Assembly (NCBI RefSeq): GCF_016904885.1
Contig: NZ_JADWYI010000001.1
Span: 2,046,001-2,110,000 of the forward strand
Reading direction: 5' to 3'
Origin: Archangium primigenium
GTDB taxonomy: Bacteria; Myxococcota; Myxococcia; Myxococcales; Myxococcaceae
Length of the DNA: 64,000 nt
The translations under genes and the position numbers were made by a program. The notes under the pieces were generated by a model. That model had not been told where the DNA came from, did no database searches, and was given only the letters and a program-made list of their open reading frames with translations. Below are positions 25,607-30,836 of this stretch, piece after piece (positions within the stretch are counted from its first letter, which is position 1; each line of letters opens with the position of its first letter).

Positions 25607-27016
25607 TCAGCGGCCCAACTGGATGTTTTCCAGCACGCCGAGCGCGTCGGGCACCAGCGGCGCCACCGAGTAGTAGGCGCTCACCAGGTACTCGGTGATG
25701 GCCTGCTGGGTCGTGTCCATGCGCCGCGCCGACAGGCTGGGCTGGATCTCGTCGGGGATGCCCGTGTTGTGCAGACCGACGACGCCCTGATCCTCCAGGC
25801 CCGTGCGCATCACGATGATGGACGTGGTGCGGTCCGGGTGGATGGGGATCTTGTCGCTCGGCAAGAGGGGCACGCCGCGCCAGGCGATGACCTGACGGCC
25901 CTGCACCTCGACGCACGTCGGATAGACGCCCTGGCGGTTGCACTCCTGGCTGAACGCCGCGATGGCCCGCGGGTGGGCCAGCAGGAAGCGCGACTTGCGC
26001 CGCCGGCTGAGCAGCTCGTCCAGGTCGTCCGGCGTGGGCGGACCCTTGCGCGCCTGGATGCGCTGCTTGAGGTCGGCGTTGTGCAACAGGCCGAACTCCC
26101 GGTTGTTGATCATCTCGTGCTCCTGGCGCTCGCGCAGGGCCTCGACGGTCAACCGCAGCTGCTCCGCCACCTGGTTCATCGGATCGTTGAAGAGATCCGC
26201 CACCCGGGTGTGAATGCGCAGGACGGTCTGCGCCACGCTCAGCTCGTACTCGCGGGGCCGCAGCTCGTAGTCCACGAACGTGCCCGGCAGGGTGGGCTCG
26301 CCGTGGTGGCCCGCGGCCAGCTGGATGGCCGCCTGGCCCGACTTGTCCTGGGGCCGCCGCAGGCGCGCCTTGTACTCCTCGACGTGCACGCCCAGCGCGG
26401 GAGACTGCTGGATGAGCAGCTCGAAGGTGCGCTGGGGCAGCATCATCACCGTGCAAGGGGTGAGCGCCTTGACGCTGTAGGACCAGAAGTCGTTGTGCTC
26501 CACCACGGACTGGTCGCCGAAGTGGTCGCCATCGCCCAGCACGTCGAGGACGACCTCGTCCCCGTACTTGCCCGTGCCCAGCTTGTTGGCCCGGCCGTGG
26601 GCCAGCAGCACCACGTGCTCGGCGGGCTGTCCCTTGCGGACGATGAGATCGCCCGCCTTGAACTGGTGCTGCACGAACTGGTTGGCCAGGCTCGACACCA
26701 CCAGGTCATCGCCGTCGAAGCCCCGCAGCAGCGGCAGCTTCTGCAGCTCCTGGGGGATGACCTGCACCTTGGCGCCGATGTTGCTGAAGTTCAGCCGGCC
26801 GTCTCCCGCCAGGTAGGTCAGGCGGCGGTTGACGCGGAACACGCCACCGGACACCTGCACCCAGGGGAGCATGCGCAGGAGCCAGCGCGGGCTGATGCTC
26901 TCCATCTGCGGCTGCGACTTGGTCGTCGTCGTCAGCTGCCGGGCGGCGAGCGTGGACAGGCTGAACTGCCGCCCGTCGGGGGCGCCCCCGTTGCCCGGAT
27001 TCGTCGGATTCTCCAT
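25607..27016 (-). CDS. Family 2B encapsulin shell protein, second paralogue (cNMP-binding-like domain)
   Basis: 469 residues, third gene of the geosmin operon, 27 bases after the first shell gene, with a GAGGAG site. The N-terminal arm has the motif LSTLAAR (20-26) and [10 protein letters not shown], followed by [25 protein letters not shown] and other HK97-type shell blocks. A cyclic-nucleotide-binding-like domain sits at about 100-215 ([28 protein letters not shown]), placed as the insertion known in family 2B encapsulins. The Arg of the phosphate-binding cassette is missing ([11 protein letters not shown]). The C-terminal shell part includes [12 protein letters not shown] and [13 protein letters not shown]. 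It differs clearly from its partner, suggesting a mixed two-protein shell. It self-assembles in the cytoplasm. Confidence 0.9.
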
Positions 27017-27043
27017 GAATGGACTCCTCGTGAACGGGGGGGA

Positions 27044-28459
27044 CTAGTCGTTGTGCGAACGGCCGAGCTCGACGCTCTCGAGGATGCCGAGCGCGTCGGG
27101 CACGAGCACCGCCGCGGAGAAGTAGGCGGTGACCAGGTAGTTGATGATGGCCTTCTCGTTGATGCCCATGAAGCGCACGTTCATGCTGGGCTCGATCTCG
27201 TCCGGGATGCCGGCCTGGTGCAGACCGACCACGCCCTGGTTCTTCTCACCCGCGCGCAGGAGCATGATGGAGCTGGTGCGCGTGTCGCTGATGGGAATCT
27301 TGTTGCAGGACACGATCGGGATGCCGCGCCAGGCGGGGATCATGTTGCCGTTGAACTCGATGCTCGTCGGGTAGATGCCCCGGCGGTTGCACTCCTGGCC
27401 GAACGCGGCGATGGCGCGCGGGTGGGCGAGGAAGAAGGACGGCTCCTTCCACACGGTGGACAGCAGCTCGTCCATGTCGTCGGGCGTGGGGGGACCGCCG
27501 CGCGTGTGGATGCGCTGCTTGAGGTCGGCGTTGTGCAGCAGGCCGAACTCCGGGTTGTTGACGAGCTCGTGCTCCTTGCGCTCCTTGAGCGCCTCGACCG
27601 TCAGGCGCAGCTGCTCCTGCGTCTGGTTCATGGGATCGTTGAACAGGTCGGCCACGCGGCTGTGGATCTGCAGCACCGTCTGCGCCACGCTCAGCTCGTA
27701 CTCGCGCGGGTGCGTGTCGTAGTCCACGAACGTGCCGGGCAGGGTGGGCTCGCCGTGGTGGCCCGCGGCCAGCTCGATGGCGGCCTCGCCCGTGCTGTCC
27801 TGCTTCTTGTTCTTCATCCGCGCCTTGAAGCCCTCCACGTGCTTCTGCAGCGACGGGGAGAGGGCCATCACGGACTCGAACGAGGACTGCTGGAGCACCA
27901 GGATGGTGCAGGGCGTGGCGGCCTTGTAGGTGTACTGCCAGTAGTCCTGGGACTCGAGCAGCACCTGGTAGCTGTAGTGGTCGCCGTCGGCGAGCACCTC
28001 GAGCACACCCTCGTCGCCGTACTTGCCCTTGCCCAGCTTGTTCACCTTGCCGTGGGCGATGAGGAAGATGGCGTCGGCCTCCTGGCCCGCCTGGGTGATG
28101 ACCTCGCCGGCCTTGTACTCCTTCTGCTCGAAGCGGTTGGCCAGGGCGGAGAGGATCTCCACGTCCTCGTACTCGCGCAGCAGGGGCAGCTCGGTCAGCT
28201 CCATGGGGATGACCTGCACCTTGGAGCCGGTGCTCACGAAGCTCACCCGGCCGTCGCCCAGCGTGTAGCTCAGGCGGCGGTTGAGGCGGAAGATGCCGCC
28301 GTTGACCTGCACCCACGGCAGCAGCTTGAGCAGCCACCGCGAGGAGATGCCCTGCATCTGCGGCTGCGACTTGGTGGTCGTCGTCAGCTGACGCGCCGCC
28401 TGCGTTCCAAGGCTCAGCTGCTGCTTCTCATCACCCGGCTTGCCCACTGGACTGGTCAT
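27044..28459 (-). CDS. Family 2B encapsulin shell protein, first paralogue (cNMP-binding-like domain)
   Basis: 471 residues, directly downstream of the geosmin synthase gene. It has the same layout as the second paralogue: N-terminal arm with LGTQAAR (17-23) and [10 protein letters not shown], the [14 protein letters not shown] block, a cNMP-binding-like insertion at about 105-215 ([28 protein letters not shown]) and a C-terminal HK97-fold part with [25 protein letters not shown] regions. The cassette Arg is again absent ([11 protein letters not shown]). Known family 2B shells assemble into small icosahedral cages around terpene cyclases or related cargo; two-shell systems have been described in Streptomyces. 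I infer that it packages the adjacent geosmin synthase. Confidence 0.92.
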
Positions 28460-28573: not shown

Positions 28574-28580
28574 ACGAGGC

Positions 28581-30836
28581 CTAGGTCTTGCCGCCCGAGA
28601 ACACGGACGCGAGCCGGGCCGCCGAGGTGCCCAGCCCCTTGGGGACCGAGCGCGGCAGGAACGGCTTGTGGGAGGCGCGCAGCTCGAACTCCTTGTAGCG
28701 GTCCACGGCCTGGTGCCACCGGAGCACGCCCGCCATCCACTGCTGCAACTGCTCCACGTAGCGCATCACCCGGGCCTTGCCGTCCTCGTCCAGACCGAAG
28801 TCCTCGAGGAGGATGGGCAGCTCCAGCGCGACGATGTGCTGGAACTGCTTCATGCGCGCGGTCATCAGGTTGTTGACGACCTCCACGGCCTCGAGCGAGT
28901 CGAGCTGCAGGAAGCGCTCGACGACGAGCACGCCATTGTTGAGCTCGCCCTCGAACTCGATCTCCTTCTGGTAGGAGAAGACGTCGTTGGTGAGGCAGGC
29001 GTAGTCGGCGGCCGAGTTCTCCAGCGCGCGCATGGGCCGGGTGCGGAAGATGGCCGCCGGGATGCCGTGGCCGTGGGCCAGGCGCGACAGGCTCATGGTC
29101 AGGTCCGAGCCGAACGTCTTGCGACGCATCTCCACGTAGTCGACCGGATCCGGCACGCGGTTCTGCGCCACGTTGGCCAGCTCCCACAACCAGCTGGACG
29201 TCATGTCCTGGATGGCGCGGCGGAACTGGTTGCGCGCCTCGGGCTCCATGGGGCCGGCCGTGCGGGCCCAGATGTCCGCGAGGCCCTTCTCCACGGGGTT
29301 GAGGGGCACGGTCGTCAGGGTCTTGGGGTCATCCGGCATGAACAGGGACAGCCGGGCGTTGAACACCTTGGCGCCCGCCATGTCGCGCGTGTTGCCATAG
29401 AAGGCCGGGAAGTAGTCGTCCGCGTACGTGCCCCACACGAGCCAGCAGGCCGTCAGGTTGAGCTGGGGGCCGGTGGCGTTCGGGTGGATCATCGCGCCGC
29501 ACAGGGCCACGTCCGCCACGTCGAACTTGTGGTCGTCCCAGATGTAGGCGCCGGTCATGCCCGGCAGGGACACGAGCATGCCCATGTCGCGCGCCCACTC
29601 CTTGGAGTGTCGCCGCGCGGCGTCCAGGTTGCCGTTCACCCACGTCTTGTACGGCATGTAGAACTTGGGCAGCTTGAGCGGCCCCACGGCCGAGTAGGGC
29701 ACGTGGGCGTAGCTGCGCATCCGCATGAGCCCCAGGGCGCCGGGCGTCAGCCGCACGCGCACCGACGACGTCCCCAGGCCCGTGGGCCCGAGCGGGATGT
29801 TCAGCTCGGGGCCGGAGCGGTTGCCCTTGTTCATGTACCGGCTCGAGCGCATGTGCCACTCGTGGCCGCCGGACTGCCAGTCCTGCAGGCCCCGGATGTA
29901 GAGCATCACGCTGGCCTGCTCCGCGGGGTTCAGGCCGTACTCGGCGAAGAGCGAGGGCAGCTCGGTGAGCGCCGTGTTCTCGAACTGCTGGAGCCGCGAG
30001 GTGAGGATGTCGTTGGTGAGCTCGGCGGCGCGGGGCGGATCCACGTCCAGGAAGCGCTCCATCACCAGCACGCAGTTGGACAGCTCGCCCTCCTCCTGGA
30101 TCTCCCGCTGATAGGAGAAGAGGTCATTGCGCAGGTGCACCGCGTCGGCGAACGTGTCCTTGAGCACCAGCATGGGCCGGGTGGCGGCCACGCGGTCCGG
30201 CACCTCGACGAAGACGGCGTGCTCGACGAGGTCCGCGCTCCAGGGCGCGCCACCCACCTTGCGGCGCATCTCGATGTACTCGATGGGGTTGGAGACGCGC
30301 TTCTCGCTGATGTTGAGCAGCTCCCAGTTGGACTCCTCGAGCAGGGCCTTGGTGCTCTCGAAGAACCGGCGCCGCCACGCGAGCGACTTGGAGGGCACCG
30401 TGCGCGCCCACAGGTCGATCAGCCCGCGCTCCACCGCGTTGGTCGGCTCGGGCGGCGGCGACATGTCCACCGGCATGAACAACGGCAGCCGATCCAGGTA
30501 CTTCTTGGCGCCCGCGATGTCCCGGGGCCGCTTGTAGACCTCCAGGAAATGGTCATCGAAGTAAAATACCCAGACATACCAGTCCGTGATCAGATCCAGC
30601 TCGGGACCGGGCGCCTCGGGATGCGTGTACGCGCACAGGAGCGCATAATCCATGGCATCCAGCTTCGCTTCATCCCAGATCTCGGGCTCGCGCTCGGGCG
30701 GATCGATGATGCCCATCTGGCGCGACCAAGCCTTGGTGTGCGCGCGGGCTCCCTCGAGATTGGGATTCAGACGCGCGGGCCACGGGACATAGAAATCGGG
30801 CAACTCAAAGGGTTGCTTCGCGTGCGACTTGGACAT
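28581..30836 (-). CDS. geoA: Geosmin synthase (bifunctional germacradienol/geosmin terpene cyclase)
   Basis: 751 residues, close to the 726 of the Streptomyces enzyme. Class I terpene cyclases convert farnesyl diphosphate to germacradienol (N domain) and then geosmin (C domain). The N domain has DDHFLE at 94-99 and NDLFSYQRE; the C domain has DDYF and NDVFSYQKE, so both Mg-binding motifs are present in each. The linker (353-360) and C-terminal tail (734-741) carry GLGTSSVR and GLGTSAAR. I start at the ATG at 30836 with GGGGGAGGA; the frame stays open 124 codons further but overlaps the divergent gene. First gene of the encapsulin operon and the presumed cargo. Confidence 0.95.

Follow-up and report, generated by a model that had tools for sequence, protein, structure and literature searches.

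Family 2B encapsulins are known to take terpene cyclases as cargo. Cyclases resembling geosmin synthase carry an 11-residue tag in the linker between their domains and at the C-terminus, and operons with two shell genes were noted in the same study (Andreas and Giessen 2021, PMC8346489). In 2020, a cluster of geoA followed by two 'cnb' genes, for proteins of 471 and 469 amino acids (aa), had been described as an order common to Cyanobacteria and Deltaproteobacteria, with the cnb products taken for Crp/Fnr regulators (PMC7251104), and according to a 2025 preprint all myxobacterial geosmin clusters contain encapsulins (PMC12224551). Here, we analyze an operon of this kind, a geosmin synthase gene followed by two shell genes, in a 64,000-nucleotide stretch of the Archangium primigenium genome (contig NZ_JADWYI010000001.1, positions 2,046,001 to 2,110,000), which we call the window and whose own numbering is used throughout.

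Work on a two-shell system of Streptomyces lydicus by Dutcher et al. (2025) showed that one shell protein, Enc2, assembles alone, that the other, Enc1, does not and that the two co-assemble in all combinations to form mixed, irregularly tiled shells (PMC12407261). The same study defined two diagnostic motifs, of which motif 1 reads TVWK in Enc1 and RRRK in Enc2 and motif 2 is a luminal loop of the A-domain; it also found that the CRP-like domains do not bind cyclic nucleotides and that ordered N-arms of Enc1 narrow the two-fold pore (PMC12407261). Bacteriophage T4 likewise builds two HK97-fold paralogues into one particle, but the T4 paralogues are fixed to pentamers or hexamers, whereas the S. 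lydicus shells tile irregularly (PMC12407261).

Set beside these systems, the Archangium operon is a further instance of a published kind, and its architecture, described in 2020, 2021 and 2025, is not new. With the Family 2B terpene-cyclase operons (PMC8346489) it shares the two-domain cyclase, the tags in linker and C-terminus and a shell, one or two in number, with a cyclic nucleoside monophosphate (cNMP)-type domain; nothing essential differs, and the window holds another operon of that type. The same three genes stand in the same order in the geoA–cnb–cnb cluster (PMC7251104) and the myxobacterial geosmin cluster (PMC12224551), and the lengths of 471 and 469 aa recur in the former, although the proteins read there as Crp/Fnr regulators are read here as shells. 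The S. lydicus pair, Sl-Enc1 and Sl-Enc2, has the same TVWK/RRRK distinction, upstream Enc1 gene and inserted CRP-like domains, but a xylulose kinase takes the place of the geosmin synthase, and for the myxobacterial pair assembly is predicted. What is new, as read from sequence comparisons across related operons, is that gene conversion between the two shell genes spares the A-domain around motif 1. We put at roughly 0.8 the probability of the following reading: the operon specifies a geosmin-making compartment in which a tagged synthase sits in a mixed Enc1/Enc2 shell, the A-domain difference between the shells is required, and the CRP-like domains are not cyclic-nucleotide sensors.

A geosmin synthase gene with two Family 2B shell genes

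The geosmin synthase gene (28581..30836; 751 aa) is followed by the first shell gene, Enc1 (27044..28459; 471 aa), and the second, Enc2 (25607..27016; 469 aa). All three open reading frames lie on the minus strand, with Enc1 upstream of Enc2 (28459-27044, then 27016-25607) and gaps of 121 bp between synthase and Enc1 and 27 bp between Enc1 and Enc2. These coordinates agree with a preliminary description made from the sequence alone, which had named a geosmin synthase and two distinct shell genes on one strand, and its assignment of both shells to Family 2B also holds: they score 756.8 (Enc1) and 737.1 bits (Enc2) on NF041163 ('family 2B encapsulin shell'), far over the curated cut-off of 400 bits. 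The HK97 part matches PF19307 with E <1e-130, and PF00027 (cNMP_binding) lies ahead of it at aa 113-199 and 117-204, respectively. With NF041163 matching over its full length, each protein thus has a cNMP-binding-type domain placed in the E-loop. The best solved relatives of both are the Family 2B shells 9bje, 9bix and 9bhu, matched over their full length.

Enc1 and Enc2 of the window are 63% identical, and no further Family 2B shell was found in the genome. Motif 1 assigns them to the two types: TVWK lies at residue 335 of the first shell, RRRK at residue 338 of the second. The Enc1 motif, TVWKEPS (aa 335-341; 27437..27457, minus strand), follows the definition in PMC12407261, and its Enc2 counterpart is RRRKSR (aa 338-343; 25988..26005, minus strand). 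The 10-residue motif 2 regions lie at aa 366-375 of Enc1 (27335..27364) and aa 368-377 of Enc2 (25886..25915), both on the minus strand; their sequences differ, with a single column (Enc1 375) being diagnostic across 72 operons. The closest solved chain to Enc1 is 9bje, which bears the Sl-Enc1 motifs, and the closest to Enc2 is 9bix, which bears those of Sl-Enc2, these two entries having been assigned to the S. lydicus proteins by motif match.

A homology check for the same gene order in other myxobacteria, suggested in the preliminary description, found synthase–Enc1–Enc2 in 37 of the 37 shell-linked Cystobacterineae operons read (one ends at a contig end after Enc1). The window's flanking genes (Imm52, Ppx/GppA, KaiC-like and response-regulator) occur nowhere within ~2 kb or more around the operons of 47 relatives, a few of them duplicates. 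Because the order recurs while the flanks do not, the arrangement is not due to chance and the cassette consists of three genes; a wider conserved cluster was rejected on the same grounds.

The synthase as probable cargo

Against a curated cut-off of 1200 bits for NF041168 ('family 2 encapsulin nanocompartment cargo protein terpene cyclase'), the synthase reaches 1236.6 bits over profile positions 1-735. It contains two class I terpene synthase domains (Terpene_syn_C_2, PF19086), its best PDB match is the N-domain of geosmin synthase (5dw7/5dz2), and all four metal-binding motifs are present (DDHFLE at 94, NDLFSYQRE at 237, DDYFPA at 473 and NDVFSYQKE at 617), as in a full-length two-domain cyclase with intact metal sites. 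Two 11-residue tags each agree with the published consensus (PMC8346489) at 9 of 11 residues: tag 1 in the interdomain linker (aa 350-360; 29757..29789, minus strand) and tag 2 in the C-terminal tail (aa 731-741; 28614..28646, minus strand). The AlphaFold2 model is confidently helical in its domains and falls below 50 in predicted local distance difference test score at aa 335-387 and 716-751; the tag-bearing linker and C-terminus are therefore likely disordered. At least one strong tag was present in 25/25, 46/47 and 8/8 shell-linked synthases in three scored sets, in a comparison where no 11-mer of domain 1 scored above 6/11. A degenerate nucleotide pattern encoding the tag matched 15 sites genome-wide, against 58 for the reversed control, and only the two within the synthase read as tags, so we rejected other cargo in this genome.

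The synthase also travels with Family 2B shells across genomes, counting a shell anywhere in the genome and bearing in mind that such counts are not phylogenetically independent. Among 193 Myxococcota genomes, the 59 with a geosmin synthase are the same 59 that have full-length Family 2B shells (the two lists being matched by eye). All 13 synthase-bearing genomes among 346 Actinomycetota have a full-length 2B shell, with one further genome having a shell and no synthase, as do all 8 among 292 cyanobacteria; in one of 3 further cyanobacteria with full-length 2B shells, another tagged terpene synthase adjoins them. Both genes are found in 146 of 150 Streptomyces genomes, the rest having the synthase only (one), the shell only (one) or neither (two). 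Together, the two tags in predicted disordered segments and the obligate co-occurrence with shells in myxobacteria support the earlier proposal of the synthase as cargo: it is probably packaged, and encapsulation of the window's own enzyme would follow the example of its homologues.

Streptomyces departs from the linked arrangement, as its synthase gene is mostly distant from the shells. About 65 of ~144 Streptomyces synthases, counted by hand from the results table, have an NF041168 match that ends at or before position 723 and thus appear to lack the C-terminal tag, which was absent in 7/7 short-profile synthases read directly. Every Streptomyces-type genome examined has a lone Enc2-type shell reading RRRGTK or RRRGSK at motif 1 (L226, L228, L229, L231, L233, L234, L236 and L237). 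Such a lone shell might take up the unlinked synthase in trans.

Gene conversion spares the A-domain

We aligned Enc1 with Enc2, segment by segment, in 78 two-shell operons. The CRP-like domain is on average the most divergent segment between partners (57% identity), and identity in the A-domain segment 316-410 never exceeds 79%. Only 11 columns separate the two types across 72 operons, namely 335-341, 375, 400, 407 and 222.

The pair in Nostoc sp. NOS(2021) (L099:12388-15415), a metagenome-assembled genome, is 93.6% identical, with 201 consecutive identical codons. No codon differs between its CRP-like domains, its A-domains (316-410) are only 77% identical, and it retains TVWK/RRRK and every diagnostic column except 222. 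Isolates of the Streptosporangiaceae show a similar pattern: in Planotetraspora and Microtetraspora operons L121, L125, L126 and L153, residues 234-313 have 96-100% DNA identity per 20-codon block, partners share runs of 55-101 identical codons, identity falls sharply at motif 1, and in three of the four it rises again from residue 411. Nearest neighbors are mosaic. The Microtetraspora partners are 100% identical over 234-315 and ≤89% identical to any other shell there, whereas over 343-410 they are 71% identical to each other, 85% to foreign Enc1 and 78% to foreign Enc2.

These identical-codon runs and mosaic neighbors indicate gene conversion between Enc1 and Enc2, and the same mosaicism led us to reject recent independent duplication as the source of the similar Nostoc pair. 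Conversion is clear in two lineages, Nostoc and Streptosporangiaceae, and L118 and L114 show fainter traces of it; no recent tract was seen in the window's own operon. A literature search that covered few subscription papers returned no relevant report on encapsulins and gene conversion. As the A-domain alone is spared, it appears to be assembly or cargo docking, and not ligand sensing, that keeps the two shells distinct.

We give slightly better than even odds to a fuller history, in which a single ancient split produced Enc1 and Enc2, and conversion then homogenized the N-arm, E-loop, sensor-like domain and C-terminus while selection kept ~10 A-domain residues (335-341, 375, 400 and 407) different. 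Having two shells would then be of use at the subunit interface or in docking cargo on the luminal side, and not in sensing, and the Enc2 type of A-domain would be what a lone Family 2B shell needs. The difference could instead have arisen by repeated convergence, with no single split shielded from conversion, as the 11 type changes required on the whole-protein tree would suggest. We consider this unlikely, because the A-domain tree built without motif 1 needs only 4 label changes, of which supported branches force 1, against 12 on the rest-of-shell tree and 11 on the CRP-like domain tree, and because the runs of 55-201 identical codons and the segment-wise mosaic of nearest neighbors display conversion directly.

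Why two shells

A second possibility is that two shells are kept for ligand sensing, each CRP-like domain responding to a ligand of its own, cyclic nucleotide or other, and gating the pores. The divergence of these domains between partners would fit, as would their remaining divergent in the Streptosporangiaceae operons whose neighboring segments have been converted. We aligned the shells with E. coli CRP. At the position of its phosphate-binding Arg82, both window shells have Trp, as do 61 of the 62 aligned shells of both types, and Glu72 is replaced by Tyr in the window's Enc1 and Asp in its Enc2, with mostly Tyr or Asp across the 62 shells. Neither window shell thus retains the phosphate-binding Glu and Arg of the CRP cassette, and a cyclic-nucleotide response is not expected. 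The invariant Trp may point to a conserved role of some kind, but the Nostoc operon pairs differing A-domains with CRP-like domains that match codon for codon. Distinct sensor domains are thus dispensable there, and a nucleotide-based reason for two shells is weakened further. We therefore hold ligand sensing to be improbable. The preliminary description had proposed geosmin synthesis in a mixed cage whose two shells set pore or cyclic-nucleotide response: the homologous S. lydicus shell makes a mixed cage plausible, and a role in pore properties is possible through the Enc1 N-arms, whereas the cyclic-nucleotide response falls away given the Trp substitution and the lack of binding reported for S. 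lydicus (PMC12407261).

Enc1 and Enc2, both being full-length shell proteins, could also form two separate homogeneous cages, an option left open by Andreas and Giessen in 2021 (PMC8346489). This is very improbable in light of the S. lydicus work, where Enc1 failed to assemble alone and co-assembled with Enc2 in all combinations (PMC12407261), and of the operons examined, which include no genuine Enc1-only case, each partnerless Enc1 lying at a contig end or having its partner cut off. All 9 single-shell operons are of the Enc2 type, ~6 of them with flanking sequence long enough that a partner would not have been missed, which fits the ability of S. lydicus Enc2 to assemble alone. That the shell genes encode Crp/Fnr-type regulators of geosmin synthesis, as annotated in PMC7251104 and as the PF00027 domain might suggest, is refuted by their domain content, since we found no DNA-binding domain in them, an HK97 shell domain (E <1e-130) accounts for the other 250 residues and the cryo-electron microscopy relatives 9bix, 9bje and 9bhu match over the full length.

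A model for geosmin compartmentalization

In the mixed-shell compartment that we propose, Enc2 would be the assembly-competent scaffold of a T=1 shell of roughly 28 nm. Enc1 would join it by way of interfaces distinct at motif 1 and, as seen in S. lydicus, constrict the two-fold pore with its ordered N-arms. The A-domain patch of motifs 1 and 2, located where subunits meet and on the inner face of the shell, would govern mixed assembly and possibly the docking of cargo. The synthase would be loaded by docking of its linker and C-terminal tags on the inner wall, and the CRP-like domains would sit over the two-fold pores in some capacity other than cyclic-nucleotide sensing. By analogy with characterized homologues, assembly, mixed tiling and loading may all proceed in this way; more speculatively, the likely benefit could be that germacradienol, the volatile intermediate between the two active sites, is retained in the cage near the second.

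Some observations weigh against this model. No experimental study of a geosmin operon, this one or another, was found in the accessible literature. Two synthases (L056 and L057) are tagged and have no adjacent shells, their genomes having shells elsewhere. The lone Streptomyces shell adjoins a polyprenyl synthetase in the two cases with an identified neighbor; because shells there can have such neighbors, co-occurrence in Streptomyces partly reflects shared ancestry, and with both genes near universal in the genus we rejected it as proof of loading in trans. Finally, Family 2A shells, which self-assemble, carry KVWK at motif 1 and so resemble Enc1. VWK by itself is therefore not a sufficient explanation for the failure of S. 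lydicus Enc1 to assemble, and TVWK as the sole cause is doubtful.

Related loci and neighboring genes

Three myxobacterial genomes hold second copies of geosmin synthase without adjacent shells (L056, L057, which is the same as L080, and L058). The tags are near-perfect in two of these copies, and the linker tag has decayed in the third (52% identical). As some unlinked synthases retain tags, we rejected the tag as a strict marker of shell linkage. Another myxobacterial genome (G085; L071 and L072) has two complete synthase–Enc1–Enc2 operons from different subclades.

In the cyanobacterium G601, a two-shell operon (L239:4989-10104) lies beside a 596-aa single-domain terpene synthase that is not a geosmin synthase and has three tag-like motifs. 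Two divergent cyanobacterial 2B-like shells (L240:4975-6462 and L241:3981-5426; 42-45% identical) read VWKK and adjoin no recognized cargo; the neighbor of one is an AAA ATPase of AbiEii type.

In the window itself, a convergent Imm52 immunity-protein gene (24833-25603, plus strand) ends 3 bp from the end of Enc2. Upstream of the operon lie divergent genes for a KaiC-like ATPase, a response regulator and a Ser/Thr kinase (31093-34314, plus strand), the first two of which were not found beside the operon in relatives.

Implications

Why bacteria keep two shell proteins is a question whose answer this comparison narrows to a short patch of the A-domain. The Nostoc NOS(2021) pair, with shells that differ almost only in that domain, provides a natural near-isogenic control. 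The analysis also sets the compartmentalization of geosmin, known from the taste of water and the smell of soil, apart from the widespread annotation of its shell genes as cyclic-nucleotide regulators.

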